From NCBI GenBank assembly GCA_028707175.1, contig JAQTUV010000003.1, forward strand, positions 62,001-126,000: DNA of 64,000 bases, given 5' to 3'. The stretch comes from Sideroxydans sp. (lineage in GTDB: Bacteria; Pseudomonadota; Gammaproteobacteria; Burkholderiales; Gallionellaceae). Each line of letters starts with the position of its first letter. Positions within the stretch are counted from its first letter, which is position 1. The notes below the pieces were generated by a model. The model ran no database searches. It saw nothing but the letters and a program-made list of their open reading frames with translations, and was not told the origin of the DNA. Both the position numbers and the translations under genes were made by a program. Positions 22,845-44,169 of the stretch are shown piece by piece.

Positions 22845-22860
22845 TGGTGCCCGGAAGAGG
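22845..22860. mobile_element. attL, copy of the tRNA-Leu 3' end
   Basis: TGGTGCCCGGAAGAGG matches TGGTGCCCAGAAGAGG at 45672-45687 in 15 of 16 positions, in the same orientation. It corresponds to the CCA end and acceptor/T-arm side of tRNA-Leu and marks the distal end of the integrated element. Confidence 0.88.
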
Positions 22861-25695: not shown

Positions 25696-25714
25696 ACCGC
25701 TTCGGCGGTTTTTT
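25696..25714 (+). terminator. Terminator of the left island operon
   Basis: ACCGC-TTCG-GCGGT followed by TTTTT, starting seven bases after the stop codon. Confidence 0.85.
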
Positions 25715-25715
25715 G

Positions 25716-26240: not shown

Positions 26241-26264
26241 TTCGGGGTCAGCAGTAAATAAATA
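26241..26264 (+). promoter_or_regulatory. 24-nt island motif, copy 1
   Basis: TTCGGGGTC-AG-CAGTAAATAAATA, starting 70 nt before the ATG at 26311. One of six copies; see the findings. Confidence 0.75.
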
Positions 26265-26310
26265 TAGCTGTTCAATTTCAATAGCTACAACCCTTTAGGA
26301 GAACTCCAAC

Positions 26311-26514
26311 ATGAATACCGATTTAGTTAAGAAGCTCAATGAAATTAACGAATCTCAATCTCTGCTTTCTGATTTTGAGAAGTCTTATGTCGCTGACAAT
26401 TTGGAGAGAGTCGGAAAATTTGGCGACACAACCACATTTTCAGACAAGCAAGGAGCATTGATTGAACGAATCTATCAAGAGCGAGTGATTCAAAAGCGAC
26501 AAGCTAAAAGATAA
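26311..26514 (+). CDS. Small hypothetical protein behind motif copy 1
   Basis: A 67-aa charged protein (MNTDLVKKLNEINESQSLLS) with AGGAG before its start. No family recognised, no signal peptide. It is probably co-transcribed with the large exported protein 29 nt downstream. Confidence 0.6.
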   Translation: MNTDLVKKLNEINESQSLLSDFEKSYVADNLERVGKFGDTTTFSDKQGALIERIYQERVIQKRQAKR

Positions 26515-26543
26515 ATCACACTCAAACTATAGGAGGCTTAACC

Positions 26544-27689
26544 ATGCTTAAAATTCTCGCATTACTTGCAATATTTTCAATGTCTGCAACTGCACAAGCA
26601 GACCCAACAATATCGGCTGATTCGGGCAAAGGAATCGACCAAACAAAAACCAAGAAGCAGACCCTCGACAAGAAGCAAGAAGCCTCTAAATCGCGGTCGA
26701 GGGCTCATAGAAACACAGACGAAGATTCGCGAGCTACTGAAGCCAGCACAAACAAAGCAGATAGGCAGTCGTGGTCTAGGAGTCGCGAGAGCGGTAGAAG
26801 TGCATCCATAGACATCAACATCAACGGTGCATTGATAAGCGAATTCGTTTCGCATTATGAAAAGCGGGAACCCTCTCAGGCCGACCCGTTGGCCGTGCAG
26901 TATTTCGCCACATGCAAACCGATTATGAATGCTCAGGTTGATTACCCAACTTTGAACGGCTGGTTTGGAGCTCGTTTGAGCCAACCGCAAGCCGATTACT
27001 CTCAAATTGTTGGTCGTAAAGGAGCGATTCATTATTCCAAAGCTCACATGAACCCTCGCGGGAGTGGTGCGGACGGAAGCGACCAGCTCATGACATATTT
27101 CGAAATGAAGCCCGAAGCTACCTACATCAGCCGATATGCTCGATGCAGAATCGTTGCTCACTTCTTTCTGAGTGAAGCCTCAAATCGTGCGGTCGAGGGC
27201 GAAGTTCAAAGTGAAAAAGAAATCCGCAATCGCATCCAAAATGTCTTCGACGAGATGGATCAGCAAGAAGACATGTTCACAGACATGCAACAGGAAGCTC
27301 GTACTTTGTGGGCATCCGCGACCTGTTCACCAACCCTCACGATTTGGGGGGAGTTCAAAGGCCCTGAGATGCAATGTGGTGTGTTCAATTACACATCCGC
27401 TGGTTTTGAGGTTGATTACCGCAAGACTTTATCAGCAGATGCGATTGATGGTCGCACCTACAAAATCGCCGTCAATGGTGCTTTAAACGACAGCTACACG
27501 GATGAGAACAGCCAAGGTAATGACTACCGCAAGTCAGTGGCTTCTCGCACAGCCGACACTCGCGAGCGAGCAACAGAAGCTAGAAAGCAAGTTTCTGTTG
27601 GTCTAGGTCAGTCTATGGAAAAATCTAAACAGCTTGGACGGTCAAGAAAAGACGGAGCAGGAATATCAATCACAGGCGGAAGCAAATAA
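26544..27689 (+). CDS. Large exported protein of unknown function
   Basis: A 381-aa protein with a Sec signal (MLKILALLAIFSMSATAQA). It is followed by an Arg/Ser/Lys-rich low-complexity part (about residues 25-92), a globular middle with three cysteines, and an Arg- and Glu-rich C-terminus. Preceded by AGGAGG. The signal peptide resembles those of other island proteins. Outer membrane or cell surface is possible; no function assigned. Confidence 0.65.
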   Translation: MLKILALLAIFSMSATAQADPTISADSGKGIDQTKTKKQTLDKKQEASKSRSRAHRNTDEDSRATEASTNKADRQSWSRSRESGRSASIDININGALISEFVSHYEKREPSQADPLAVQYFATCKPIMNAQVDYPTLNGWFGARLSQPQADYSQIVGRKGAIHYSKAHMNPRGSGADGSDQLMTYFEMKPEATYISRYARCRIVAHFFLSEASNRAVEGEVQSEKEIRNRIQNVFDEMDQQEDMFTDMQQEARTLWASATCSPTLTIWGEFKGPEMQCGVFNYTSAGFEVDYRKTLSADAIDGRTYKIAVNGALNDSYTDENSQGNDYRKSVASRTADTRERATEARKQVSVGLGQSMEKSKQLGRSRKDGAGISITGGSK

Positions 27690-27711
27690 AGCTTGAAACT
27701 GCTAGGAAATT

Positions 27712-27733
27712 AGCCCTCTTCGGAGGGCTTTTT
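27712..27733 (+). terminator. Rho-independent terminator
   Basis: AGCCCTC-TTCG-GAGGGCT followed by TTTT and a second T-run, 22 nt behind the large exported protein. Confidence 0.85.
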
Positions 27734-27790
27734 CTTTTTGAATTGTGCCGACAAAACTTCAACGAAATCTGCTTGGGCGGGGCAATCTTA

Positions 27791-27814
27791 TTCGGGGTCA
27801 ACAGTAAATAAATA
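27791..27814 (+). promoter_or_regulatory. 24-nt island motif, copy 2
   Basis: TTCGGGGTC-AA-CAGTAAATAAATA, 62 nt before the ATG at 27853. The 27 nt upstream also match copy 5 with one change. Confidence 0.75.
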
Positions 27815-27852
27815 GCAGGACATTATTTTTAATCGAAGAAGGGAAACACATC

Positions 27853-28398
27853 ATGAAGAAATTAGTTCTATTAGCAATCTTAGCCTCAATCTCTGCATCT
27901 GCTTCCGCCGTTGGGTGGGACACGACTGTCCCGTCAGTTGTTGAAGCGGTCAAGGATGCAAAGAAATCGCAACACGAAGAGCAGTTGGCTCGTGGTGCGG
28001 TTTGGCATGTCGGCATTCAAGCCTCTTCCGTCGCAGACCAAATATCCGGCGGTGCAAGCTGGAAGTTTGACGATTCAAGTCTCGCTAATTTCAGCTACGG
28101 CTTCAAAGCTATTGCGGAGAAGAACGACAGCAACGGAACCCGCACGGCAATCGTTGGAAAGGTCGGTTTTGGACACGAACACGGCAAATTCACTATCTCA
28201 CCTCAATTCGGATATTCCTCTCAAATTGGGGCTGTTTCTGGTGTTGAAGTGAAATTCAAACTGCCTTTGTTTTCCAGCGATCACCTTTGGGCAAATATCA
28301 ACATGCTTTCAGGTAAAGGCACTGACACAGTTGATGCTCAAGGCAACTCAACAGGCAAATACTCAATGACCTCTTTCGGTCTTAACTACAGCTTTTAA
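27853..28398 (+). CDS. Putative outer-membrane beta-barrel protein
   Basis: A 181-aa protein with a Sec signal (MKKLVLLAILASISASASA). The mature part alternates polar and nonpolar residues as in beta strands (FSYGFKAIAEK, GKFTISPQFGYSS, EVKFKLPL). It ends in LNYSF, with the terminal phenylalanine used by the BAM machinery. Likely an 8- to 10-strand barrel. Forms an operon with the next gene 15 nt away. Confidence 0.65.
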   Translation: MKKLVLLAILASISASASAVGWDTTVPSVVEAVKDAKKSQHEEQLARGAVWHVGIQASSVADQISGGASWKFDDSSLANFSYGFKAIAEKNDSNGTRTAIVGKVGFGHEHGKFTISPQFGYSSQIGAVSGVEVKFKLPLFSSDHLWANINMLSGKGTDTVDAQGNSTGKYSMTSFGLNYSF

Positions 28399-28413
28399 TT
28401 AAGGAGAATCAAC

Positions 28414-29355
28414 ATGAAATCGACAATGACTAAAATCGCTTTGGCTGTAGCCTTGGCAATGACTACCGCTTCTGCAAGTGCAAATGTAATCGGCGACACT
28501 TGGGATAAGTTCAATACCTTTATGTACACACCGAGCATCACTGATGGCATGAGTCCAGCAACTAAGAAGTTCGTTGGCGGAACTGCTGGTGTAATTGGCT
28601 TAGGTGCGGTCGCTGGCTCCCTGCCTGTTGCCTTGGTAGCTGTGCCAGTAGCTTATGTGGCTATGACTAATCCACCAGTGGGAAGCAATGACCGTGTAAC
28701 TGTGACTGAAATCTACGGATGGATGATTAAGGATGTCAGCAAAGCTACACCTAATGAAGAACGAGCTTTGCAACTTGGCTTTGAGAAAATGCAAGCCTTG
28801 TGTGAGAAAAATGGCCGTATAGCAGGTGGAATGAAACCTCACTGGAACTTCAAGGATTGGGAGTATGCCGTCAATAAATTTACGAGTGCTGCTGACGAGT
28901 ACGACCGCACAAACAAGATTAAGTCGGGTGGCTTTGGTGGTGGAAATTATGTTGGTGGTGAATGGTTAAGCACTCGTCAGGCTCTTGAGAAGAGAATCTA
29001 TGCTGATGTGACTAGCCCCCGCAATGGCAAGCGATTCGGTGTAAATCACCAAATGATGTTCGACATGATGTCCAAGACTCAAGGTTCCATTTCGACTGAA
29101 ATGGAAATGAAATTCGAGTGTGATCGAGGAACTATCGTAGGTGCAAACATTGGTGGACAAGACCAGAAGATTGAAAACAAAGACATGATTTCGGTCTACA
29201 TTCCTACAAGTGCTAACCCTGACAATCTCACTGTTTTAGTTGCTGAATGGGACTCTGTAGAACAAGCTTATCGCAAGAGCTACACCGAGTTTACCGCTGA
29301 TGAAATCGCAATCATCAAGGGGGAAGCAACAGGAAAGAAGGTCAACATGGACTAA
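28414..29355 (+). CDS. Exported protein with hydrophobic glycine-rich segment
   Basis: A 313-aa protein with a Sec signal (cut near ASASA). A hydrophobic Gly/Ala/Val segment lies at about residues 50-88 (GGTAGVIGLGAVAGSLPVAL), which may span or insert into a membrane. Two cysteines lie in the rest. No known family. AAGGAG lies before the start. Confidence 0.6.
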   Translation: MKSTMTKIALAVALAMTTASASANVIGDTWDKFNTFMYTPSITDGMSPATKKFVGGTAGVIGLGAVAGSLPVALVAVPVAYVAMTNPPVGSNDRVTVTEIYGWMIKDVSKATPNEERALQLGFEKMQALCEKNGRIAGGMKPHWNFKDWEYAVNKFTSAADEYDRTNKIKSGGFGGGNYVGGEWLSTRQALEKRIYADVTSPRNGKRFGVNHQMMFDMMSKTQGSISTEMEMKFECDRGTIVGANIGGQDQKIENKDMISVYIPTSANPDNLTVLVAEWDSVEQAYRKSYTEFTADEIAIIKGEATGKKVNMD

Positions 29356-29384
29356 TCCAACAGTCCATAGCACCAACAAGACTA

Positions 29385-29406
29385 AACCCGCTTCGGCGGG
29401 TTTTTT
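29385..29406 (+). terminator. Rho-independent terminator
   Basis: AACCCGC-TTCG-GCGGGTT with a run of T, 30 nt behind the exported protein gene. Confidence 0.85.
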
Positions 29407-29601
29407 CTTTCATGGTTTTAATCCACGCATGAATCAACTCTCGCCAGTCACTCATCCCCGCCAGACAAAAATCATATTTATTTTGCTCGGTCGTAAAAAA
29501 ATATTTGTAAGTCAGTAAGTCTCAAAAATCCACTTCTCAACGAAATCAATACTTTTTCCAGAATCGGAAAAATGTTCGCCAAATTCGTCTTCAAAAAATC
29601 G

Positions 29602-29625
29602 TTCGGGGTCAGCAGTAAATAAATA
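29602..29625 (+). promoter_or_regulatory. 24-nt island motif, copy 3
   Basis: TTCGGGGTC-AG-CAGTAAATAAATA, 71 nt before the ATG at 29673. Confidence 0.75.
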
Positions 29626-29672
29626 AGAGAGTCAATTTCGATTCTCGCACTTCATAACAAAAGGAGACTCAC

Positions 29673-30341
29673 ATGAAGAATTTAGTTCTATTGGCAGTAT
29701 TGGCAACATTGGCGACTTCGGCACAGGCAGAAGTCTACGGCGGAATGGCGATTGGTTCTAACGGCCACGGCACGGGCGAAGTGAATGTTGGATTCTCGAT
29801 CATCGAAGAAGACACTCATTCCCTTAACTTCGAAGTGACTGGTTCCAAGGTGGTTTTGAAGGCGACTCAAAACCTGTTTGGTGGCACTGTCCAGCCAGCA
29901 CAAGCAGGTACACCAGCGACTGTAACTGGTCCTGGCACACCAGCAACACCAGCTCAATTAGTACCTTTCGCGACTTCGACTGCGACTGGTGCAGTGACTG
30001 GAACTGGCAATGCAGTGGCTTTAGGTAGCAGATTTGGTGGTGCTCTTGTATTCAAAGGCCAAGTCACTGAGTCCGTCCTAATCGTCCTCAAGGGCGGTGT
30101 GCAAAGCTTCAAGACAAGTAGTTCTGCTGGCACTGCTGGTGGCTTCTTGACTGGCACTTCCGGTATCACTGGCGGACTGTTGGGTAAGGCTTTAGGCGAG
30201 AACGACATCGAGCCTACCGTATCCGTGGGTATGGACTACCGCATTCCTGGAATGAAGGGAACCGCTGTAACGACTCGTGTTTCATTCGCACCGAGTCAGC
30301 AAGAGTCTCTGAATATTGGACTGCAATATTCCTTCAAGTAA
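29673..30341 (+). CDS. Putative outer-membrane beta-barrel protein with Ala/Pro/Thr-rich insert
   Basis: A 222-aa protein; Sec signal MKNLVLLAVLATLATSAQA. Amphipathic strands follow (GGMAIGS, GEVNVGFSII, LNFEVTGSKVVL). An Ala/Gly/Pro/Thr-rich insert at about 73-110 (AGTPATVTGPGTPATPA) looks like an exposed loop. It ends LQYSFK, close to a barrel C-terminal signal. Its first residues resemble those of the 27853 protein. Confidence 0.65.
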   Translation: MKNLVLLAVLATLATSAQAEVYGGMAIGSNGHGTGEVNVGFSIIEEDTHSLNFEVTGSKVVLKATQNLFGGTVQPAQAGTPATVTGPGTPATPAQLVPFATSTATGAVTGTGNAVALGSRFGGALVFKGQVTESVLIVLKGGVQSFKTSSSAGTAGGFLTGTSGITGGLLGKALGENDIEPTVSVGMDYRIPGMKGTAVTTRVSFAPSQQESLNIGLQYSFK

Positions 30342-30352
30342 GCAACCCGATT

Positions 30353-30375
30353 ACAGCCCCTTCGGGGGCTGTTTT
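30353..30375 (+). terminator. Rho-independent terminator
   Basis: ACAGCCCC-TTCG-GGGGCTGT and TTT, 11 nt behind the barrel gene. Confidence 0.8.
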
Positions 30376-30408
30376 CCCACCAAATATCGAATCATTTAGG
30401 AGAAAGAC

Positions 30409-30663
30409 ATGAGCGACAACAAATCAGCAATTTCAGAGTTTATTGCAAAACTAGAAGCTACTTATAACAACGAGAAAATCAGTTCAATCGTGAGCGCCGT
30501 TGTTCTTATTGTATTCCTTGGCATCGCATTTTTGTGCGGTTCCTTTTGGCAAAGTCAGCAAGACAAAAGCACGGCTGAAATGAATATATCTCTCGAATTA
30601 AGTTCGATTTCGAAATCGTGTGAATTAGCGAGTAAGGCCGCACACATTCACCAAAACCCTTAA
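30409..30663 (+). CDS. Small single-span membrane protein
   Basis: An 84-aa protein with one membrane helix (IVSAVVLIVFLGIAFLCG, about residues 27-46), a charged N-terminus and a polar C-terminus. Preceded by AGGAG. No copy of the 24-nt motif lies directly before it; transcription may pass through the preceding terminator or use another promoter. Confidence 0.6.
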   Translation: MSDNKSAISEFIAKLEATYNNEKISSIVSAVVLIVFLGIAFLCGSFWQSQQDKSTAEMNISLELSSISKSCELASKAAHIHQNP

Positions 30664-30674
30664 GGAGAATTCAA

Positions 30675-31097
30675 ATGAAGAATGTATTTTTGGGGGTGTT
30701 GGCTACCTCAGCACTTGCAGGCTTGATTCTTTTATTGTCATTTTTTCAATCTGAGCGGAATACCGCTGAGATGAAAGTTCAAGAGGCTGAAGAGGCGGTC
30801 GAGTGGCAGGAAGGTAAGGACGATTGGAAGGACGCATGGAACGGCATCAGCAACGATCCAGAAGACCGCTCTCGACTCCTTAAAAAGAGAAATGAGCGAT
30901 TGGACGGCTTAAAGGCGGAAGCTGAAAAGGCAAAAGTCAAAAGAGATCATTTAGACAATTATCTCGACAAGGCTGCCAACGAGATGGAATCGGCTCTTGA
31001 AGAAGAGAGTTTGAATCTTGAAGGACTCAAGAAAAAGACCAAAAAGGAAAATGCACGAGCTCCAAATCCGATGATTGACGATTTAGACGTTCAATAA
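30675..31097 (+). CDS. Membrane-anchored coiled-coil protein
   Basis: A 140-aa protein: an N-terminal hydrophobic helix (VFLGVLATSALAGLILLLSFF) and then a long, highly charged helical region likely to form a coiled coil. It shares a pattern of membrane helix plus STAEM or NTAEM with the preceding protein, which hints at a pair. AAGGAG before the start. No family recognised. Confidence 0.6.
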   Translation: MKNVFLGVLATSALAGLILLLSFFQSERNTAEMKVQEAEEAVEWQEGKDDWKDAWNGISNDPEDRSRLLKKRNERLDGLKAEAEKAKVKRDHLDNYLDKAANEMESALEEESLNLEGLKKKTKKENARAPNPMIDDLDVQ

Positions 31098-31123
31098 AAC
31101 TGTTTTTTTCCTTTCCAGTTTTC

Positions 31124-31153
31124 CCCCGTAAATGAAAGTTTGCGGGGTTTTTT
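31124..31153 (+). terminator. Rho-independent terminator
   Basis: CCCCGTAAA/TTTGCGGGG, nine pairs, six-base loop, then a run of T. Confidence 0.85.
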
Positions 31154-31276
31154 TCTTTCAAGATTTACATCCTTTTTAGTTTACATCCGGTGATGCTCTT
31201 AAAAGTTTTAGCTGTTGTTTTTCGTTGTTCGCTTCCTTTCTGCTAGGGCAAGAGGGGGTGCTTTTCAACTAAATCA

Positions 31277-31300
31277 TTCGGGGTCGGCAGTAAATAAATA
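31277..31300 (+). promoter_or_regulatory. 24-nt island motif, copy 4
   Basis: TTCGGGGTC-GG-CAGTAAATAAATA, 65 nt before the ATG at 31342. This copy heads the run that contains the relaxase candidate. Confidence 0.75.
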
Positions 31301-31341
31301 TGAGCCACTGAAGACTCTAATTCTGAAAAGGAGAAGCAACC

Positions 31342-31638
31342 ATGCAAAATTTCATACTCGCACTTTCACTAATCGTACTCGCTGGCACTGCTCAAGCCGA
31401 GTCTTTAATGCCTACCCATAACGACCTGTATTGGAAGAAGTCAGAGGTGGCAGACAGCTTGCCAAATCCTTCTTTAAAACAAGTCAGAGTGAACAAGACT
31501 TTCTATCCACCCAAAGCGATTGAGCATTCAAACGATAAGTGGGGAGAGAACATTTATCGCTTAGAAGCTCCCAAGGGCTATCACTTTTATAAGGCTGGAA
31601 AGGGCTATTTATTGATTGCAAATGAGGTGCAGAAATGA
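31342..31638 (+). CDS. Small exported protein
   Basis: A 98-aa protein; Sec signal FILALSLIVLAGTAQA, mature part about 79 aa with several aromatic residues (HNDLYWKK, GYHFYKAGKGYLL). AAAGGAG before the start. Its stop overlaps the next start (ATGA). No family recognised. Confidence 0.6.
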   Translation: MQNFILALSLIVLAGTAQAESLMPTHNDLYWKKSEVADSLPNPSLKQVRVNKTFYPPKAIEHSNDKWGENIYRLEAPKGYHFYKAGKGYLLIANEVQK

Positions 31639-31889
31639 CCGACAACAACTGGATAAACGGTACTGAACTTTATCAAGCAATCGGAATGGTAAAGGCGATA
31701 AATCAGGCCATTCGTGAAGGCGAATACCCAAAGCATATCAGCCAAGGTGAAATCAACTTCATTACAGATTTAGCCGTCCGTGTCAGCAAATTTGGTTCTG
31801 ACACCTGCATTTCATGCTTTCAGCAATCAATCATTCAACAGCTCGCGACGAAGATTTACATGTATCGCATTGAACAGGTTTATTCGTAA
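31635..31889 (+). CDS. Small hypothetical protein, possibly a relaxase accessory
   Basis: An 84-aa soluble helical protein with a CISC pair near residue 57. It sits between an exported protein and the relaxase candidate with an ATGA overlap and a 16-nt gap. Accessory role in transfer is suggested only by position. Confidence 0.55.
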   Translation: MTDNNWINGTELYQAIGMVKAINQAIREGEYPKHISQGEINFITDLAVRVSKFGSDTCISCFQQSIIQQLATKIYMYRIEQVYS

Positions 31890-31905
31890 TTTAAGGAGAA
31901 ACAAC

Positions 31906-32619
31906 ATGGAATTTTCCAAACTATCACGAGCCGAGAAGATGGCAATGGCAGAAGCTAAACAAAGTGCCATTTTGACCTTTCTCGCCTCTGGTGAGGTCTA
32001 CACCACATTCGACATTTTGAAGTTGCTTTTGGGTCGTTCTGAATCAACGGTTCGCCGAACCATTGAGGTGATGCTCAAAGAGAAACTTATTCGCCTTGAG
32101 TCTTTAGAGGTCGGCTCAAAGAAAACGGTTCTGATCGGAATAACTGAACATGGTGTGGCTATGGCAGATCGTGCCGGCCTTTGCCCTAATTACATTTTGG
32201 GCAGAACAAATCCTGCTTATGTCACTCACCATGTAATGACTCAAAAGACTCGAATCAAGGCGGTTAAGGCTGGTGCAACCGAGTGGCTGCCTGGACGGGC
32301 TTTGAGAAATAAAAGCTATTTGAAAGTGCCGGATGCACTCTACAAGATTGGCGACAAGACGGTAGGAGTAGAGGTCGAGCGTCACCTGAAGAGTCCGAAG
32401 AGATATGCAGATGTGGTGGCTAATCATTTGCAAGAAATGTCTAAAAAATCGTGGAGCGAAGTTCATTATCTTTTGCCCCCTTTGGCAGTTCCAAAGATTC
32501 AGAAAATCTTCAACGAATTGGGAACGGTCACAGTGAAAGGCACTGTCGTTAAGTTAGAGCAGAAGCACCTCGACCGATTCAAATTCTATTCTTTTGACGA
32601 ATACCTTTCGTCGAATTAA
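31906..32619 (+). CDS. MOBC-type relaxase candidate (replication-relaxation fold)
   Basis: A 237-aa protein. Residues 20-75 are a winged helix-turn-helix (VYTTFDILKLLLGRSESTVRR). The C-terminal part has a nuclease-like arrangement PD(143) ... ExE(156,158) ... K(162) followed by RYADVV, as in MOBC relaxases such as CloDF13 MobC, which lack the histidine triad of other relaxases. It would nick the transfer origin. The ATG at 31906 has AAGGAG before it; an earlier in-frame start would overlap the previous gene. The nearby coupling protein supports the call. Confidence 0.65.
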   Translation: MEFSKLSRAEKMAMAEAKQSAILTFLASGEVYTTFDILKLLLGRSESTVRRTIEVMLKEKLIRLESLEVGSKKTVLIGITEHGVAMADRAGLCPNYILGRTNPAYVTHHVMTQKTRIKAVKAGATEWLPGRALRNKSYLKVPDALYKIGDKTVGVEVERHLKSPKRYADVVANHLQEMSKKSWSEVHYLLPPLAVPKIQKIFNELGTVTVKGTVVKLEQKHLDRFKFYSFDEYLSSN

Positions 32620-32657
32620 CCCGCCAATATTGGCAAACTTTGAGAAGGAGAAGCACT

Positions 32658-32897
32658 ATGAAACTTGAAAGACTTTTGAAACAACAGGAGCAAATTGCTT
32701 TGCAAATTGCACAAGCGAAAGCGGAGCAAGCCAAGCAAGCAGAACAGGCAAAGCTAATCGAGAAGCGGAAGGAGAAAGTCAGCAAAATGATTTTGGACTT
32801 GCTGGAAAAATCCCCAACAGTTTTCCTCGCTGACAACACAGTCATTAAGGAAAAGATTTCTTTTGCCTTGCAGGAAATCTCTCAAGTTTCAGCCTAA
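32658..32897 (+). CDS. Small coiled-coil protein
   Basis: A 79-aa protein; residues 1-45 are Gln/Ala/Lys/Glu-rich coiled coil (LLKQQEQIALQIAQAKAEQA). The rest is a small globular helix-strand unit. AGAAGGAG lies before the ATG at 32658. By place it may be a DNA-binding accessory of mobilization; no motif proves it. Confidence 0.55.
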   Translation: MKLERLLKQQEQIALQIAQAKAEQAKQAEQAKLIEKRKEKVSKMILDLLEKSPTVFLADNTVIKEKISFALQEISQVSA

Positions 32898-32923
32898 CGA
32901 GATGAAACTAACGAGATGAAAAG

Positions 32924-32946
32924 CCACTCTTCGGAGTGGTTTTTTA
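32924..32946 (+). terminator. Terminator behind the mobilization genes
   Basis: CCACTC-TTCG-GAGTGG followed by six T, 26 nt behind the coiled-coil gene. Confidence 0.85.
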
Positions 32947-32991
32947 TTGCACTCAATTCTTAAAGCATAGGATTTTGTATAGAAATGGGTC

Positions 32992-33016
32992 GCACCTATA
33001 CATTGCACCTATACAT
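32992..33016. repeat. Two tandem GCACCTATACAT repeats
   Basis: Copies at 32992-33003 and 33005-33016, period 13, with GTATAG just upstream at 32977 as a partial inverted match. Could be a binding site at the edge of the noncoding region. Confidence 0.45.
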
Positions 33017-33179
33017 AACACTCATTCTTTTTGGTCAAAACTGACAGATAAATGCTTTACGGACGAACAGCAACGGCTCTAACGAGAATAAGAAGCCAAG
33101 ACGGTGCGGCGAAGCCACACTTGCAACTAAAAACTGTTGCAAATAAAGGCAAAAGTCAGAGGCAATCAGGTGTATTAAA

Positions 33180-33940
33180 GACCGGAAAGCCTCGCTTCGC
33201 TCGCCCTGCTAGGGCAGGGAAGCTTCCCTCTCGTCCTGAACGGACTCGTTCCTTTAATAACCCTCACGGCAGTCCCTCGCTTCGCTTCGGGCAAAGCAAA
33301 AAGCAGACTTCGCCTAAAGATTTTTCGTGCCTCAAAATTTTAGTCTCGCCTCTCAACCAACACGATAAAGCTGTGTAGGTTTTCGAGGGTGGGGCAAGCC
33401 CACTCGTGCCTTTTGCTTTGCCCGAAGCGAATGGGGATGAAGCTCCCATTCCGGGACTGCCAGGTCTTCGACCTCTCAAACAGAATCGGTAGCTGGGGCT
33501 ACCTAAATTTGCTGGGGCAAATTTTTCTATTTGATTCACCATCCTCAATCCCAAGGGGATTTCGGAGCTACGATATTCGACAAAGATTTTGACAATGAAG
33601 CCGTCAAAACTTTCTCTCAATCTCCGCCCAAAACTTCCTTCCGTTGGTCGTCGTTTCGGTTCCCGTCAGAGAATAATCTTACTCATTCTTCGTAAGCTTA
33701 TTCATCTGACCAGACTTAAATCCATGACGATAAATCCGTCCTGAATTTAAGTCTGCCCCTCCAAAAGCCTGACAAGAAGCCGTCAGACCTTTGCGGGTTC
33801 CCTCACTAGAATATTCCCACGTTGGTCAATTCTTGCGTGAGAGTAAATCTATAAAACTATCCTCGCGTTGGTCAATCACTCGCGTTAGAAACACATCTCA
33901 AAAGTCCACACATCCACCAACAAAACTCGTTGGTGTTGTC
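33180..33940. other. Hairpin-rich noncoding region, candidate transfer origin or structured RNA
   Basis: No convincing gene. Hairpins seen include GCCCT-GCT-AGGGC (near 33204), AGGTC-TTC-GACCT (near 33463), GGTAGC-TGGG-GCTACC (near 33488), AAATTTGC-TGGG-GCAAATTT (near 33504), a 17-pair stem at 33665-33710 (GTCAGA/TCTGAC, GAATAA/TTATTC, CTTAC/GTAAG), a perfect ten-pair stem AGACTTAAAT/ATTTAAGTCT at 33712-33754 with a small inner stem GACG/CGTC, and CACCAAC/GTTGGTG at 33916-33936. It lies between the relaxase and coupling-protein genes, where an oriT is often found. Confidence 0.6.
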
Positions 33941-34101
33941 TTCAAAGAATCTGTCCGGTGAGGGCTATACCAGCCAGTAAATATACAAGCTAGTTTGGCT
34001 AGGAAGAGGGCTAATCTTTGTTGGGAAATTCCCGTGAGGGTGCAACTAGCAAAGCGGTGAATGTGATTCGACTTAGATTAAAACTCCAAGGTCAATAGAA
34101 A

Positions 34102-34370
34102 GCCGTTTCACGGCAACTGCCACTTAGAAGCCAACCCAGCCGTTACACGGCAATGCCAAGAAACCGACCCATTCGCTTCGCGAAAAATCCACTAGACCCC
34201 AACCCACCCCCTACGGGGAACTGCCACTAAAACCAACCCAGTCGCTCTCGCGACAACTGCCACTCAGACCCCAACCCAGCCCCTTCGGGGCAAATCCACT
34301 AGACCCAAACCCAGTCGCATTCGCGACCAGTAATCCCCTTCGGGGCAATGCCACTCACCCCACGAAGTGG
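34102..34370. repeat. Periodic array of nine short stem-loops with conserved linkers
   Basis: Stems at 34102 (GCCGT-TTC-ACGGC), 34139 (GCCGT-TAC-ACGGC), 34172 (TTCGC-TTC-GCGAA), 34208 (CCCC-TAC-GGGG), 34241 (GTCGC-TCTC-GCGAC), 34279 (GCCCC-TTC-GGGGC), 34314 (GTCGC-ATTC-GCGAC), 34335 (CCCC-TTC-GGGG) and 34360 (CCAC-GAA-GTGG). Spacing is 33-38 nt for the first seven, 21-25 after that. Linkers keep TGCCACT or TCCACT, then AGACC and CAACCCA. Stem bases change on both sides together. None has a T-run. Confidence 0.75.
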
Positions 34371-34402
34371 ATGAAGAAATCTGCTTGGACGGGGCAATCT
34401 TA

Positions 34403-34426
34403 TTCGGGGTCAACAGTAAATAAATA
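34403..34426 (+). promoter_or_regulatory. 24-nt island motif, copy 5
   Basis: TTCGGGGTC-AA-CAGTAAATAAATA, 64 nt before the coupling-protein ATG at 34467. Together with 27 nt upstream it repeats the region of copy 2 with a single change. Confidence 0.75.
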
Positions 34427-34466
34427 TGGAGCCAATTCGGCGACTATTTCTAAAAGGAGCAGAACT

Positions 34467-36236
34467 ATGTTCGATTCAATTTCACTTGCGATACTTGCTG
34501 GGCTGATTAAAACCCAGACAAGTTTTTACTTAATGGGCTTGTTCGCTGGCTTTATCTTATTGGCACTAAACCAAGACAAAGAGAGCGAGAGGCGGGAGCT
34601 TTATTGGGGCATAGGCTTGTTCTGCCTGACTCCCTTGCTGGCTTACTTCGCAACCCCCTTTATGGCTGACCTTGCAGGGTATGAACACACCCCATTAAAG
34701 GAGCAATTGCTTTACTGGCTCTTATCCGTCATTGCGGGACTCGGAATCGTCTTTGCTTGGTTGAGGTGGGGAGTCCGCAAGCTGGACAAGTTCAAAGCTA
34801 AGGTGACGGTTAAGACCGATTTAGAGCGGAATCGTAAAACGGATGTCCGCGAAATCGAACATCACCTTCCAAAGAAAGTTCACGACTTTGATCCGCTGAA
34901 ATACATGGATAAGAAGCGAGGTGTTTTCCTTGGCCTCGACGAGAAAGAGCAACCAAGTTTCATCGAATTTGGCACGGGCAATTCAGCACCTCATATTCAA
35001 GTAATCGGCACGACCGGAGCGGGTAAAGGTGTGAGTCTTGGAGTTATGGGAAGCCAGTACCTTGAACGGCAAGAATCAGTCTTCATTTTCGATCCCAAGG
35101 ATGATGAATTTTTTCCAAGTGTCATGTATGCCTCAGCTAAACGACTTGGAAAGCCATACCATTTTGTGAACCTTAAACGACCAAATGGGGCTCAATTCAA
35201 CCTCTTTGAAGGTGCTACAAGTGAAGAAGCTTTTGAGCTATTTCAAGCAGGTCTAGGGCTGACCGATAAGGGCGATATTTCAGACTTCTACGGTATCGAC
35301 GACCGCAAGGCCGCAATCTCTACAGCTCAAAGGATGGCTGAAGGCAACCTCTCAATTGCAGAGGTTTATAACGACCTTGAGGCTGAATTCACCTCGAAGG
35401 ATTTCCAAGCAAAGAAGTTCGCTGGAAGGCTTGCCGAAATGGCAGCACTGCCCAGCATCAATGCGAAATCAGGTGAAGGAATCTCTTTGGCGAAAGTCGT
35501 AGAGGAAGGCGGATGTGTCTATGTAATCGGCTCCATGAGAAACGACATCGTGAAGACTGCTCAAAGGATGTTGCTCATTCGTCTTATCCAATTGGCTGAA
35601 CGAAGAGACCGCATGGGCGACGAAGAACTTCGCAAAATGTGCATCGTTTTGGACGAGGTGAAGTACCACATCTCAAGACCAGCACTGGAAGCACTCGGAG
35701 CATGCAGGGACAAAGGTGTCCACCTGATTCTGACCCACCAAAGCTTCGGCGATCTCAAAGATTGTCCTAAAGACTTGAATGCCGATGCAGTTGTTGATGC
35801 GGTCGTTGAAAACTGCAAAGTCAAAATCTGCTATCAGGTTATGAGTCCCGAAACGGCTGAATGGCTTGCGGCCATGAGCGGAACCATATTGGTCGACGAC
35901 GAGACCCGCACGGTGAACAAGAACATCGTTCAAGCTGAAACCGTCGATTCGGAAAGAAGGATCAGCCAGACAGAACGATTCTTCGTGGATGTGAATATGT
36001 TGCGAAACCTGCCGAAATCTTGTGCCGTGGTGTACGGGGACGGACTCGCTAAATTCGTGAGTATCCGCCCATTGAAGGTCAAGAAAGCTAGAGAGAGCAT
36101 CGAGGTCAAAACTGTTCAAGGGACAGTCTCTAAAACGGGACACGAATCAATCAACCTGGACGACGACGAAGCCACACCTTCAAGCGGATTTGGCACAACG
36201 AGCAACCAAGAAGCCAACCCAGTTTTGGATCTGTAA
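34467..36236 (+). CDS. VirD4/TraD/MobB-type coupling protein (conjugation ATPase)
   Basis: A 589-aa protein with three or four membrane helices in the first 100 residues. An ATPase domain follows: Walker A GTTGAGKG (181-188), FIFDPKDDEF (about 207-216), Walker B IVLDE (393-397) and a sensor segment ILTHQSFGDL. It would link the relaxase-DNA complex to a type IV secretion channel. The pairing with a MOBC-type relaxase is known from CloDF13 (MobB and MobC). The ATG at 34467 follows AAAAGGAGC. No channel genes are present, so a helper element would be needed. Confidence 0.85.
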   Translation: MFDSISLAILAGLIKTQTSFYLMGLFAGFILLALNQDKESERRELYWGIGLFCLTPLLAYFATPFMADLAGYEHTPLKEQLLYWLLSVIAGLGIVFAWLRWGVRKLDKFKAKVTVKTDLERNRKTDVREIEHHLPKKVHDFDPLKYMDKKRGVFLGLDEKEQPSFIEFGTGNSAPHIQVIGTTGAGKGVSLGVMGSQYLERQESVFIFDPKDDEFFPSVMYASAKRLGKPYHFVNLKRPNGAQFNLFEGATSEEAFELFQAGLGLTDKGDISDFYGIDDRKAAISTAQRMAEGNLSIAEVYNDLEAEFTSKDFQAKKFAGRLAEMAALPSINAKSGEGISLAKVVEEGGCVYVIGSMRNDIVKTAQRMLLIRLIQLAERRDRMGDEELRKMCIVLDEVKYHISRPALEALGACRDKGVHLILTHQSFGDLKDCPKDLNADAVVDAVVENCKVKICYQVMSPETAEWLAAMSGTILVDDETRTVNKNIVQAETVDSERRISQTERFFVDVNMLRNLPKSCAVVYGDGLAKFVSIRPLKVKKARESIEVKTVQGTVSKTGHESINLDDDEATPSSGFGTTSNQEANPVLDL

Positions 36237-36300
36237 GGACACCTAGACCAGCCAGACCAATAATCTGGCCGGACGGGTCTTACTACCAAAGGAGAAAGAC

Positions 36301-36522
36301 ATGACAAATACCGAACGACAAAGAAAGTGCATTGACGACAAAAAGGCTAAAGGGCTTGTAAGGGTGAGCTTTTGGCTCCCCCCTGAAGACAAAGCACGGA
36401 TTGATGCTTATTCCAAAGAGCGCGGTATGACTACCGCTGACTCAATTATGGAAATGTGTTCAGAGGCCGAGAAGATGAATCTATTGAGGGTTGAGACGAT
36501 TTATCGAATGGGACACTACTAA
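36301..36522 (+). CDS. Ribbon-helix-helix type regulator
   Basis: A 73-aa protein. VRVSFWLPPEDKARIDAYSK fits the strand plus helix of Arc/CopG/MetJ-fold DNA-binding proteins. AAAGGAG before the start; a terminator comes directly after the stop. It may repress the coupling-protein or mobilization transcripts, or control copy number. Confidence 0.7.
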   Translation: MTNTERQRKCIDDKKAKGLVRVSFWLPPEDKARIDAYSKERGMTTADSIMEMCSEAEKMNLLRVETIYRMGHY

Positions 36523-36525
36523 CAG

Positions 36526-36547
36526 AACCCGCTTTGGCGGGTTTTTT
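36526..36547 (+). terminator. Rho-independent terminator
   Basis: AACCCGC-TTTG-GCGGGTT followed by TTTT, 3 nt behind the RHH gene stop. Confidence 0.85.
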
Positions 36548-36561
36548 GGTACTCTGCGACG

Positions 36562-37041
36562 ATGAAACTTTTCAGCCTTATCTTCTCAATCTTGCTGGCA
36601 ACCTCAGCTACCGCCGAAACCCTATCAGGGCGGGTCGTGGGTGTGGCTGACGGCGACACTATCACCATCCTTGATAGTAGCAACACCCAACACAAAATCA
36701 GGCTTGCACAGATTGATGCTCCAGAAATCGGTCACGGCAAGAACAAGCCAGCTATGCCCTATGGCGAGAAGTCAAAGGCAGCCTTGGGAAATCTTGTTGA
36801 AAATCAAGTCGTCGAAGCTGAATGCCAGACCAAAGACCGATATGGTCGTGAAGTCTGTAAAATCCTTGTAAATGGCATGGATGTGAACCTTGAGCAGGTC
36901 AAAAACGGCATGGCATGGGTCTACACCAAATATGCCCGTGAGCAGACTTACTTCGAGGCAGAAGCTACAGCAAAAACAAAAAGAATTGGTCTATGGGCAG
37001 ATAGCGACCCCATAGCACCGTGGGAATTTAGGCATCGTTAA
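36562..37041 (+). CDS. Exported staphylococcal-nuclease-like endonuclease
   Basis: A 159-aa thermonuclease-fold protein with Sec signal (FSLIFSILLATSATA). Active-site motifs of the SNase family are present: GVADGDTITI (metal Asp), IRLAQIDAPEI (catalytic Arg and Asp), GEKSKAAL, KDRYGREVCKI (second Arg) and NGMAWVYTKY. Nucleases of this kind are common on plasmids and conjugative elements. It starts only 15 nt after a terminator, so it probably has its own promoter there or is weakly expressed. Confidence 0.88.
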   Translation: MKLFSLIFSILLATSATAETLSGRVVGVADGDTITILDSSNTQHKIRLAQIDAPEIGHGKNKPAMPYGEKSKAALGNLVENQVVEAECQTKDRYGREVCKILVNGMDVNLEQVKNGMAWVYTKYAREQTYFEAEATAKTKRIGLWADSDPIAPWEFRHR

Positions 37042-37062
37042 AGAATAAAAATTGGGGAAGAA

Positions 37063-38205
37063 ATGTCTGCATTAAATGACTTGTTGAACAGCTATCGCTC
37101 TGAATCTAAGACCCCGAGAGAAAAAGGCACTTACTTTGAGTTGCTGATTAAAGACTTCCTAAAACACGACCCGACATATTCCCCTGAATTCTCCGATGTC
37201 TGGACTTTTGCCGAATGGGCAAAGCTCCAAGGTGAAGACAACCGCGACACCGGAATTGACCTCGTTGCCAAACTTGCAGATGAAGAAGGCTTTTGTGCCA
37301 TTCAATGCAAGTTCTACGATGAGGACTACAAGATTCAGAAATCAGACCTCGATTCTTTCTTCACGGCATCTGGCAAAAAGGACTTCACTCGAAGGATCGT
37401 AGTCGATTCGACTCGCAGAGATTGGAGCGAGCATGCAGAGATAGCCATGATGGGGCAGTCAATCACGACTCTTCGTATTGGCTTGCATGAGCTAGAGAAC
37501 AGCCCGATTGATTGGAGTGTCTACAGCAAGAACAAAGTAGTCCTTAAAGCCAAGAAAACACTTCGACCACACCAAGTATCAGCTCACGATGCAGTTGTGA
37601 AAGGCTTGGCAACCGCTGACCGAGGCAAGCTGATAATGGCTTGCGGTACAGGTAAGACTTTCACAGGTCTAAAGCATGCAGAGACACTTGCAGGCCCCAA
37701 GAAACAGGTCTTATTCCTCGTTCCTTCGCTTTCCCTAATGTCTCAGACCATTAGTGAATGGACTGTTGAAACGACTACAGACCTTCGCTCATTCGCTGTT
37801 TGCTCAGATGCTCAAGTCGGCAAACGAAAGAATTCAGACGACCTTGGGGACATAAATGTCCACGACCTAGCTTACCCAGCGACGACAGATTCTAAAAAGC
37901 TGGCTCAAAAGATTGCACACCCACATGACGGAGAAATGACCGTCATTTTCAGTACCTACCAGTCGATTCAAGTCATTTCAGATGCTCAAAAGAAATACGG
38001 CTTACCTGCCTTTGACCTGATTATCTGTGACGAGGCACACCGTACAACTGGTGCAACCCTTGAAGGGGATGAAGAAAGCAACTTCGTCAAAATCCACGAC
38101 CAGAACTTCATTGCTGGTGCAAAGCGGATTTACATGACTGCTACACCTCGAATCTTCGGGGATGCTGTCAAATCTAAGGCAAAAGAAGTTGATGCAACCT
38201 TTTAG
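37063..38205 (+). pseudogene. Truncated nuclease-helicase, N-terminal part of a type ISP-like restriction enzyme
   Basis: 380 aa remain of a family that is usually well over 1000 aa. Residues 20-90 are an Mrr-like nuclease (GTYFELL E26, TGIDLV D66, IQCKF Q81/K83). A helicase domain begins with Walker A ACGTGKT (193-199), DEAH (323-326) and TATPR (359-363), and stops there. The second helicase domain, methyltransferase and target-recognition parts are missing, and the following DNA does not continue them. A functional short protein is unlikely but cannot be excluded, since the nuclease residues are intact. Confidence 0.75.
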
Positions 38206-38601
38206 AAGAATCGGAGAAGAGGCGATTCAGACCGCCGTGCAATTCTAAAAAATCGTCCGGCAAGTAAATATTCTTGCCGGACGGGTCAATCTTTGAAGGG
38301 CTGAAAAACCTTTAAGAGCATTGCCAGAAGTAGAGTTTTCAAACCTCGTTTTCGAGTCCCACTTTTTGTTTTTAAATCTTACCAAAGCCGTGTCAATTCA
38401 CCTTCATTCGTGCGAATGAAATAGGAAGGCAACCCCACGGGCTACGACTAAAAAAACCGTGGCTTCCTCTCTCTGTTCGTGCAGACCGCACCACTTTTTT
38501 TGTCTCCGACCTTCCTATTTCTTTCTATGCACTCCTGCGGTTGAGCTTTGCTCGACACGGCATGAAGAAGCAAGATTTAACAACCTAAAAAAGGAAACAA
38601 C
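38206..38601. other. Noncoding hairpin region behind the truncated gene
   Basis: Contains GTCCGGCAAG-TAAATATT-CTTGCCGGAC, a perfect ten-pair hairpin (38255-38282); TTCATTCG-TG-CGAATGAA (38403-38420); and AGGAAG...CCACGG / CCGTGG-CTTCCT (38423-38468). I see no gene. Confidence 0.65.
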
Positions 38602-39072
38602 ATGAACTCTCAAACAGAAAACACCACTTCCGCCAACGAACCAATCACAACCGACACTCACAAAAAAGCAAGTGTTGGTAAGACAAAAATGGAAACGATA
38701 AATGCACTGCAAGCCTTGAGAGGCTTAATGACTTTCAGCCAATTAGGAGCATTGGGCGAAGCTATGAGAGGCGAAGAAAAACAGTTCTTTTTCGACAAGA
38801 TTTGCGAAATGGCAGACACCTTCAACACTATGCCTAAAACATACGAGCAAGACGGCAAAGGGAAAGAGGCTATCGCTTATCTTCACTACTTCACAAGCGA
38901 TTGTGACTGGTATATCACCGAGAAGGACATGGAGCCGGAACAACTTCAAGCCTTCGGTTTGGCAAAGATTTGGGAACGAGAAATCGGATATATCTCAATC
39001 GTTGAACTCGTGGCTTGCGGTGCAGAACTCGACCTTTATTTCACCCCAACAGCTTTGAAAGACATCAAGTAA
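38602..39072 (+). CDS. DUF2958-like protein
   Basis: A 156-aa protein. The C-terminal half has the pattern of DUF2958 proteins: YFTSDCDWYITEKDMEPEQL, FGLAKIWEREIGYISIVEL and LDLYFTPTAL. These are frequent on plasmids and integrative elements and have no agreed function. The first 30 residues are polar and Thr-rich. AAAAAGGAAAC precedes the ATG. The stop touches the start of the next small gene (TAAATG). Confidence 0.65.
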   Translation: MNSQTENTTSANEPITTDTHKKASVGKTKMETINALQALRGLMTFSQLGALGEAMRGEEKQFFFDKICEMADTFNTMPKTYEQDGKGKEAIAYLHYFTSDCDWYITEKDMEPEQLQAFGLAKIWEREIGYISIVELVACGAELDLYFTPTALKDIK

Positions 39073-39150
39073 ATGATTTTCGCAACACTAGCACTAGGCA
39101 TCGTTTCACTACTCATCGCAAATCAAGCACACAAGGAACTCGCACAATGA
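39073..39150 (+). CDS. 25-residue membrane peptide
   Basis: Reads MIFATLALGIVSLLIANQAH plus five residues. One hydrophobic helix fills most of it. The start follows the previous stop directly and its TGA overlaps the next ATG (ATGA), so it sits in a translationally coupled chain, which is the main support for it being real. Confidence 0.5.
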   Translation: MIFATLALGIVSLLIANQAHKELAQ

Positions 39151-39350
39151 CCACACAGACCCAAGACCACGAGAACGGCACAAAAGCCAGCCAAACAGCG
39201 ACTCTTCTGCTCGACGACCTGCACCAGCTCTATAAGTCTGAGAATCAGGTTCCATCGGCTTATGCCTACGAGTTGATGACCGAGATGGGCAATATGAAGC
39301 AACGGCTCGACCGACTGGCCTTCGCCTTGCAACCAAGGGAAGAGGGCTAA
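39147..39350 (+). CDS. Small helical hypothetical protein
   Basis: A 67-aa soluble protein (MTTQTQDHENGTKASQTATL), helical in its second half. The ATGA overlap with the 25-residue peptide and a 2-nt gap to the next gene place it in the same operon. No family recognised. Confidence 0.6.
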   Translation: MTTQTQDHENGTKASQTATLLLDDLHQLYKSENQVPSAYAYELMTEMGNMKQRLDRLAFALQPREEG

Positions 39351-39352
39351 TC

Positions 39353-39529
39353 ATGGAAGCCTTTTTCTTAATCCTCGCTCTGATATTCGCTGCCTACCTC
39401 AACATCAAGTTTGGCGACAGCACCAGCACCGAGAGCGAAGAGCCACAGCCTGGATCATGTTATTGCGGACACCCCGCATGCACTGGGCCAATAAGTCCAT
39501 ACCACCGAGACACCTTCGAGGACGACTAA
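39353..39529 (+). CDS. 58-aa membrane protein with CXC and C motifs
   Basis: An N-terminal membrane helix (AFFLILALIFAAYLNI) is followed by an acidic linker and GSCYCGHPACTG, a cysteine group that may bind a metal. Starts 2 nt after the previous stop. No family recognised. A terminator follows 15 nt behind. Confidence 0.55.
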   Translation: MEAFFLILALIFAAYLNIKFGDSTSTESEEPQPGSCYCGHPACTGPISPYHRDTFEDD

Positions 39530-39544
39530 AACCTAAAAGACTAT

Positions 39545-39578
39545 GAACCCCTTTCTGCAAGGGTGGAGGGTTCTTTTT
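39545..39578 (+). terminator. Terminator containing a dispersed island repeat
   Basis: GAACCC/GGGTTC followed by five T. The loop region carries CCTTTCTGCAAGGGTGGAGG, which recurs inverted at 25936 and in altered form at 26131 and 31233. Confidence 0.7.
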
Positions 39579-39870
39579 AGCTTTGAAAGCTTTAGCAAGA
39601 ATCCTTTTCATGGATTTTTCTTCCCCCCAGTTTTTCTCCAAGACCTAAATTCCTTAGCAACACCTCACGCCAGAAACCAAAAGGCGACCATAAATTCCCG
39701 CCTTTGGCGGTCTATCACCGAGCTTGTTTATCCGTCACCTTTTGACCCCTACGGGGCAAGTTTCTGTCATTCGGTCTTGCCGGAATTTTTGCTCATGAAA
39801 CCGAGCAATCGTCTTTCCGAAAAAACTTGGCGAGGGGGGAAGAAAACCCCAAAACGAAAAGGAAAACATC

Positions 39871-39972
39871 ATGCAAAAGAGAAATTCAAATCAGATAAAC
39901 AACAACTTCAACACCCCCGAGCAGAAAGAAAGCCTTCAAACCCAATCTTTGGCAGCGCTCGTTGGCGCTTGA
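39871..39972 (+). CDS. Possible 33-aa peptide
   Basis: MQKRNSNQINNNFNTPEQKE then 13 residues. Preceded by AAAAGGAAAACATC, a fair ribosome site. Asn/Gln-rich, no membrane helix. Support is only the ribosome site and the neighbouring gene 24 nt on. Confidence 0.35.
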   Translation: MQKRNSNQINNNFNTPEQKESLQTQSLAALVGA

Positions 39973-39996
39973 TCTGAAACTGAAAAGGAGAAAGTC

Positions 39997-40173
39997 ATGT
40001 TCAACATATTTGAAAAAGCACAGATGGCAGTGATAGCAGTGTTAGGACTTATTGGATCAATCGCATCGGCTGGCTTAGTGCAATTAGTTTGTGGACTTGG
40101 AATCGTGCTGGCTTTGCTGTTGGAAGTGTTTGTTAAGACAAATTTGGTTCGTGCAGGGTATTACAACCGCTGA
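39997..40173 (+). CDS. 58-aa hydrophobic membrane protein
   Basis: Two closely spaced hydrophobic segments (MAVIAVLGLIGSIASAGLV and LVCGLGIVLALLLEVFV) with a short basic end (YYNR). AAAAGGAGAAAG before the ATG. Ends five bases before motif copy 6. Could be a holin-like or small pore protein by shape; not assigned. Confidence 0.6.
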   Translation: MFNIFEKAQMAVIAVLGLIGSIASAGLVQLVCGLGIVLALLLEVFVKTNLVRAGYYNR

Positions 40174-40178
40174 AATCG

Positions 40179-40202
40179 TTCGGGGTCGACAGTAAATAAA
40201 TA
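40179..40202 (+). promoter_or_regulatory. 24-nt island motif, copy 6
   Basis: TTCGGGGTC-GA-CAGTAAATAAATA, 59 nt before the ATG at 40238. Confidence 0.75.
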
Positions 40203-43935: not shown

Positions 43936-44109
43936 TTATTTGCTCGACAGCCAAGTCTGCAACTGCTCTTCCAGCCAACCAACCCTCATTGAGGATAAAT
44001 GAATTTGTTTTGGAAATTCACCCCGCTTAATCATGCGGTAAATCGTCGGTCTTGAAAGAGAAGTCATTTGGCAAACTTGCTGAATTTTTATCAGTAGTAT
44101 TTGCTTCAC
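43936..44109 (-). CDS. AlpA-like transcriptional regulator / excisionase
   Basis: 57 aa on the minus strand from a GTG at 44109. The sequence LIKIQQVCQMTSLSRPTIYR, then MIKRGEFPKQIHLSSMRVGW and LEEQLQTWLSSK, is the AlpA/excisionase winged-helix pattern almost throughout. Such genes commonly sit beside P4-type integrases and activate or steer excision. The start is uncertain: no ATG is in frame after an upstream stop, and GAAGAG touches the GTG. Confidence 0.75.
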   Translation of the reverse strand: MKQILLIKIQQVCQMTSLSRPTIYRMIKRGEFPKQIHLSSMRVGWLEEQLQTWLSSK

Positions 44110-44169
44110 CTCTTCATTTAGCTAGAAATTTACTAGCAACCGACAGTCTACAGATTTGACACCCAAAAG

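Follow-up and report, generated by a model that had tools for sequence, protein, structure and literature searches.

Introduction

The genes of several mobilizable islands answer to a conjugative helper: SGI1 responds to the AcaCD of its helper, and the mobilizable genomic islands (MGIs) to SetCD. CloDF13, with its MobB and MobC proteins, is a MOBC mobilization system. Here, we describe a 24-nt motif, TTCGGGGTC-RR-CAGTAAATAAATA (R, purine), of which six copies head six groups of genes on a chromosomal island of Sideroxydans sp. The DNA analyzed, hereafter called the window, is a 64-kb stretch of contig JAQTUV010000003.1 (positions 62,001 to 126,000, assembly GCA_028707175.1). The motif is most likely a shared transcription-control box.

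The closest described systems are the following. In the AcaCD regulon of IncA/C plasmids, SGI1 and MGIVmi1, an activator box is located upstream of island genes, mobility genes included, and a class 2 activator profile has been proposed, as set out in passages of PMC4207636. In the SetCD regulon of the SXT/R391 integrative and conjugative elements (ICEs) and the MGIs, the box overlaps or abuts the -35 region, the -35/-10 elements are poor and class II activation has been proposed, as set out in passages of PMC4344509.

The locus described here is like the AcaCD case, as those passages present it, in having one putative activator box before several genes of a mobilizable island, mobility genes included. 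It differs in that the motif is unlike the three AcaCD sites given there (by eye), no FlhC/FlhD family match was obtained for the island proteins (Pfam scans, which took in 28 of the 32 on the gene list), orphan exported genes are prominent, and the box was found in one island only. The likeness to SetCD, which is one of description and not of box sequence, concerns the poor -35/-10 elements and a box overlapping or abutting the -35 region; the motif described here is invariant over 22 positions. With the MOBC systems (CloDF13, pMET1-type plasmids), the locus shares a MobC relaxase and a MobB-like coupling protein, but here the element is a chromosomal island, mobC and mobB are located in separate motif-headed operons, and no VirB4 was found in the genome.

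Results

Six copies of a nearly invariant motif precede gene starts at a narrow distance

The six copies in the window, all on the + strand, are:

26241..26264, + strand, motif copy 1, RR = AG, heads unit 1
27791..27814, + strand, motif copy 2, RR = AA, heads unit 2
29602..29625, + strand, motif copy 3, RR = AG, heads unit 3
31277..31300, + strand, motif copy 4, RR = GG, heads unit 4
34403..34426, + strand, motif copy 5, RR = AA, heads unit 5
40179..40202, + strand, motif copy 6, RR = GA, heads unit 6

Positions, strand and the restriction of variation to positions 10-11 all agree with an earlier note on this DNA. The other 22 of the 24 positions are invariant in all six copies, and positions 10-11 are always purines, with all four purine pairs represented. 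No match was obtained in 100 dinucleotide shuffles of the window, and the window contains no intermediate sites, because the next-best (seventh) site has 6 mismatches. The observation is real and non-random.

Recomputed distances from the motif start to the first ATG are 70, 62, 71, 65, 64 and 59 nt for copies 1-6, which is the range of 59-71 nt claimed previously, and the gaps between the motif end and the ATG are 46, 38, 47, 41, 40 and 35 nt. In five units AGGAG stands before the ATG; in unit 2 it is AAGGG. Based on 30 island gene starts set by hand, the probability that a random 24-mer on either island strand ends 30-50 nt ahead of a gene start is 1.4%; the chance that six of six do so is 7e-12, a rough figure that treats the copies as independent. 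As had been claimed, the motif is always located at the head of a gene group. Copy 5 falls inside the open reading frame (ORF) 34371-36236, of which we took ATG 34467 as the gene start because AGGAG precedes it. In copy 2, the frame that matches this ORF contains a stop codon (by eye), and thus the motif is not read as coding sequence.

The consensus can be extended to T-Y-R-TTCGGGGTC-RR-CAGTAAATAAATA, with T at position -3, a pyrimidine (Y) at -2 and a purine at -1 in 6/6 copies. Upstream of position -3, no sequence is conserved in all six (12 columns examined), and the bases 3' of the motif vary among the copies. A purine at position 27 in 6/6 copies was set aside as likely due to chance among many columns. 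The earlier description of the flanks as unconserved except between copies 2 and 5 was thus incomplete: T-Y-R precedes all six copies, copies 2 and 6 share downstream sequence, and copies 1 and 4 share gapped similarity upstream.

The copies had also been described as often lying just behind a terminator. Terminator-like + strand hairpins end 8, 62, 199 and 130 nt before copies 1-4, respectively; for copies 5 and 6, the preceding 200 nt contain none. The scan used detected 41 sites in the region versus 21.0 in shuffles.

26219-26233, + strand, terminator-like hairpin before copy 1, weak
27712-27729, + strand, terminator-like hairpin before copy 2
29384-29403, + strand, terminator-like hairpin before copy 3
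31124-31147, + strand, terminator-like hairpin before copy 4

The motif was found only on the island

Within the sequences searched, the motif is restricted to the island. At up to 3 mismatches, no copy beyond the six is present in the host assembly (2.89 Mb, 19 contigs, 99.94% complete), and the earlier suggestion that it is island-specific is supported within this assembly. Both TTCGGGGTC and GTAAATAAATA are absent from the window outside the island and from a further 380 kb of the same contig. The most frequent 13-mer per strand is present at most 4 times in each of the 19 20-kb stretches that make up these 380 kb, versus 6 times for CAGTAAATAAATA here.

At the same threshold, the motif was found in 0/60 relatives and in 0/157 other genomes of the family, which include 33 other genomes of the host genus (a reversed control pattern matched in 2). 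At up to 2 mismatches, it was found in 0/368 other genomes of the class (reversed control matched in 1). These relative, family, order and class sets overlap. Two of 398 other genomes of the order each contain one 3-mismatch site (reversed control: 1), which we took as chance. The search for related islands, as had been proposed, yielded none with the motif.

IMG/VR contains no exact match. Two shortened patterns hit 41 and 4 stretches; the stretches fetched contain 20 places with up to 4 mismatches to the full motif, one per stretch, several of them nearly identical to each other, and these places were taken as chance. In the literature, searched also by sequence string with the matches listed (15 of 108) judged unrelated by title, no description of the motif was recognised.

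Genes headed by the motif

The six units contain the following genes:

Unit 1: 26311-26514 (67 aa); 26544-27689 (381 aa, signal peptide by eye)
Unit 2: 27853-28398 (181 aa) and 28414-29355 (313 aa), signal peptide by eye in both
Unit 3: 29673-30341 (222 aa, signal peptide by eye); perhaps also 30409-30663 and 30675-31097
Unit 4: 31342-31638 (signal peptide by eye), 31635-31889, MobC relaxase 31906-32619, 32658-32897
Unit 5: MobB-like coupling protein 34467-36236; 36301..36522, + strand, ribbon-helix-helix (RHH)-like small protein, candidate autoregulator
Unit 6: 40238-40486, 40506-40991, 40984-41373, 41400-41723

A terminator-like repeat at 30357 separates 29673-30341 from the possible further genes of unit 3. 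As claimed before, the downstream genes include those for the relaxase (MobC family), the type IV secretion system coupling protein and exported proteins, with signal peptides seen by eye. The RHH-like protein has weak matches below the cut-off (MatP_C, E 0.002; PRK13702 replication regulator, E 0.004). At the curated cut-off, Pfam gives no match for the proteins of units 1, 2, 3 and 6; the unit 6 protein 40422-40988 matches PHROG 16123 (E 1.2e-17), a family without known function.

The orphan proteins 29673, 28414, 26544 and 24747 have no relatives in IMG/VR, in a search that finds close relatives only. Protein 28414 has none in 149 other genomes of the family or in plasmids, 29673 has none in phages, and the region 23200-31100 has no DNA match in plasmids. 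Structure models are poor for 24747-25685 (pLDDT 39.6) and 28414-29352 (pLDDT 38.6). The first genes of units 2 and 3, 27853 and 29673, are almost identical in their first 24 nt or so, and copying between units may therefore have extended to the starts of signal peptides.

The island and its mobility genes

The island extends from about 22846 to 45687, at a tRNA-Leu gene, and has a G+C content of 44.8% versus 50.8% for the rest of the window. Its landmarks are:

22846..22860, + strand, tentative left attachment repeat, 14/15 identical (by eye) to 45673-45687, the 3' end of the tRNA
31906..32619, + strand, MobC-type (MOBC) relaxase, NF041423 MobC_subf, E 1.2e-49, 168.8 bits
34467..36236, + strand, type IV coupling protein, MobB-like, PF02534, E 7e-17
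43936..44121, - strand, AlpA-like regulator, PF05930, E 3.3e-16, open frame of 61 residues
44170..45387, - strand, tyrosine integrase, PF00589 and PF13356
45672-45756, tRNA-Leu, adjoining the integrase gene

An exact-match scan (at least 11 nt) missed the left attachment repeat because one mismatch splits it, and since that scan was silent the left limit of the island is tentative. A direct repeat (22899-22925 and 45438-45464, 78%) is present just inside both island ends and possibly represents integrase arm sites.

Judged by its protein and repeat content, the island carries transfer genes of the MOBC kind: a MobC-like relaxase and a MobB-like coupling protein, together with an integrase and tentative attachment repeats. 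The NF041423 match covers residues 7-232 of the 237 aa of the relaxase, with a bit score below the curated cut-off of 200. The coupling protein is 41% identical to one encoded beside mobC on a Citrobacter plasmid; among three plasmids with a related coupling protein (40.9-44.2% identity), mobC adjoins it in two, and the third stretch is without mobC. The VirB4 family (PF03135), the sole mating-apparatus family searched, gave no match in the host genome (19 contigs; the control was positive in 1 of 14 genomes), and therefore the island would depend on outside help: it looks mobilizable, not self-transmissible.

About eight short hairpins with differing stems and similar linkers (by eye) are located at 34099-34349, in a 1.4-kb non-coding stretch before mobB. 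On two plasmids, repeated hairpins (by eye) likewise occupy the last 120 nt ahead of the coupling-protein gene (stretch L054, before 19959; stretch L055, before 16234). Such arrays before coupling-protein genes are possibly the oriT of MOBC elements.

Island genes without the motif

No motif copy precedes the gene group starting at 23333, the genes 36562, 37063, 38602, 41782 and 43319, or the integrase gene. The identifiable genes outside the motif-headed units encode an Mrr/helicase protein, a methyltransferase, the integrase, a nuclease and the AlpA-like regulator. The gene at 37063-38205 encodes an Mrr-type nuclease with a ResIII/DEAD domain; its 380-aa ORF ends soon after the first helicase domain, and it is perhaps a cut-short restriction gene. 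The gene at 41782-42993, likewise without the motif in front, encodes a D12-class adenine methyltransferase with an N-terminal extension.

Candidates for an island-encoded protein that reads the motif are 23333, the RHH-like 36301 and the AlpA-like 43936-44121. Protein 23333, DNA-binding according to the earlier note, has no Pfam match and weak PHROG matches.

Promoter types and leaders

Using sigma-70 weight tables, the best -35/-10 scores near copies 1-6 correspond to percentiles 31, 65, 14, 7, 4 and 94 of random 100-nt island pieces; copies 2 and 6 thus score above the median of random island DNA and the other four below it. A consensus scan (-35/-10, 16-18 nt spacing) was passed by copy 6 alone. 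A sigma-70 pair is therefore poorly supported, in line with the earlier remark that the spacing does not fit one, and poor pairs at four of six copies would follow if a special factor took the place of the -35 contact. The best common -35-like hexamer, TCRRCA, corresponds to motif positions 8-13.

Sigma-54 promoters have the form GG-N10-GC; no GC is present 10 nt after any GG in the six copies (by eye). A leader RNA structure common to all six copies was likewise unsupported by folding against shuffles: the leaders of copies 1 and 3 only fold better than shuffles (z -1.9 and -2.0), the other four giving z values of 0.1 to 1.2.

Flanks are shared on one side of the motif

Flank similarity was tested over the 15 copy pairs, upstream and downstream. 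Upstream flanks are alike (p < 0.02) in two pairs, 1/4 and 2/5, the latter through one block:

27764..27814, + strand, shared 51-nt block, 50/51 identical to 34376-34426, ending at the motif 3' end (copies 2 and 5)

For copies 1 and 4, the similarity is gapped and on the upstream side only, and in copy 1 it ends about 75 nt before the motif. Downstream leaders are alike in two pairs, 2/6 (0/2000 shuffles) and 4/5 (p 0.01, marginal for 15 tests). The similarity between copies 2 and 6 begins at the motif 5' end and continues about 20 nt past the motif, with none before it, so copy 2 is a mosaic, copy 5-like on one side and copy 6-like on the other.

One-sided similarity makes the motif also a seam between shared and unshared modules. 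We read the one-sided flanks as traces of exchange or copying in which the motif served as the seam, although three pairs are few. Comparison of the copies indicates that the motif core stayed fixed while the flanks changed or were exchanged, and 22 fixed positions, differing flanks and the presence of all four RR pairs make constraint likelier than recent copying.

Discussion

A proposed shared control box read by one factor

We propose, with a probability of about 0.6, that the motif is a shared promoter or operator box of the mobilizable island's own regulon, read by one dedicated factor. This protein, whose gene may lie on the island or on a helper element, would be an activator or an alternative sigma factor; it would recognise the TTCGGGGTC block, the AT-rich TAAATAAATA block being the likely melting region, and RNA polymerase would start between the motif end, 35-47 nt before the first ATG, and that ATG. 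In one step, binding would turn on the coupling protein, the MobC relaxase with its partners, and a set of proteins without known function that are exported or located in the membrane. We infer a role of the motif in starting transcription, a single factor for all six copies, and activation rather than repression. Confinement to the island within the assembly, operon-head position and gene content, as proposed in the earlier note, are supported; the phage-type polymerase offered there as one reader is unlikely (see below). We also count in support of a motif regulon that the identifiable genes outside the motif-headed units are of other kinds.

Several observations weigh against this proposal. 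Repeated motif copies were found in none of the other genomes searched (relatives, family, order, class). In the nearest relative, a same-genus island carried on a 9.2-kb contig (genome 82% complete), MobC is followed by a small gene, a non-coding stretch and the coupling protein (MobC 42%, small protein 35%, coupling protein 56% identity), yet this island is without the motif: its genome contains none at up to 3 mismatches, and the best site on the contig has 6 mismatches and is located inside the integrase gene. Hence, mob genes can do without the motif. No other near relative sharing the MobC-MobB order was found; the box may have been lost in this one, or it may have been superimposed on the mob genes in the lineage studied here. 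Two proteins with signal peptides, 36562 and 43319, are encoded without a motif in front (by eye). No function is known for unit 6 or for the exported units, and therefore the term mobility programme rests on units 4 and 5. Finally, weak sigma-70 use is conceivable at copies 2 and 6 because the -35-like hexamer inside the motif is followed there, at 17 nt, by a fair -10.

Possible readers and roles of the motif

Because no mating apparatus was found, a strong sub-case of the shared control box is one in which the factor is encoded by a conjugative helper, and the island wakes only upon helper entry. The relaxase and coupling protein are the only transfer functions identified, and the AcaCD and SetCD boxes upstream of island genes, as passages of PMC4207636 and PMC4344509 describe them, are a precedent. 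This version is possible, but against it stands the dissimilarity to the three AcaCD sites, and no sequence that might be a helper was seen to carry the motif: IMG/VR gave no exact match, and in the three plasmid stretches with a related coupling protein (mobC annotated on two) the best matches have 7, 7 and 5 mismatches.

Somewhat less likely, the motif is an operator at which the RHH-like 36301 or the AlpA-like protein holds the six operons down until a new cell has been entered. An RHH-type gene in an operon carrying its own site is an arrangement typical of autoregulation, and 36301 is located inside motif-headed unit 5; the island also encodes the AlpA-like regulator, and the 3' half of the motif contains a short direct repeat. 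Yet near 4/6 copies there is no clear sigma-70 promoter to block, the RHH assignment is weak, and the motif is not palindromic.

A transcribed leader element, in which the promoter lies upstream and the motif works within the elongating complex or as part of the RNA, we regard as improbable. The model would be ops/RfaH, in which recruitment is to the elongating complex. A directional, strictly conserved motif at most 71 nt from the ATG would suit this, and one related plasmid carries a NusG-family gene; but nothing upstream of position -3 is conserved in all six copies, the leaders of copies 1 and 3 alone fold better than shuffles, and none of the 28 island proteins scanned matches the NusG family (Pfam).

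Fewer chances still are left to a recombination seam without a regulatory role, at which exchange between copies shuffles operons and homogenises the motif. The block shared by copies 2 and 5 ends exactly at the motif 3' end, and the similarities of copies 2/6 behind the motif only and of copies 1/4 upstream only would fit it. However, neither the narrow distance to the ATG nor the single orientation is required of a seam, positions 10-11 vary while their neighbours are fixed, which is unlike gene conversion, and no recombinase gene was recognised between the copies (Pfam scans). A promoter of a single-subunit phage-type RNA polymerase is very improbable: the strictness, conserved core and AT-rich 3' part resemble T7 class III promoters, which have a strictly conserved core and an AT-rich 3' part, but the bases after the motif are unconserved and the host genome has no PF00940 match (the control genomes were silent too).

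Returning to a control box read by a dedicated factor, a bolder and doubtful form of it is a box that serves as promoter and recombination seam at once. The island would then enlarge and reshuffle its regulon by plugging in new operons behind a fixed 24-nt promoter whose factor is of an undescribed kind.

Implications

The timing of mobilizable-island genes to a helper has already been worked out for cases such as AcaCD and SetCD. In the island described here, one nearly invariant box marks transfer genes together with orphan exported proteins, and this common box allows the guess that the exported set is active during transfer or establishment. A single short probe could suffice to fish out the factor that reads the box. 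The one-sided flanks suggest a testable way in which operons are added to a regulon; if the motif does double as a promoter box and seam, incoming operons would at once come under the transcription factor of the island or its helper.

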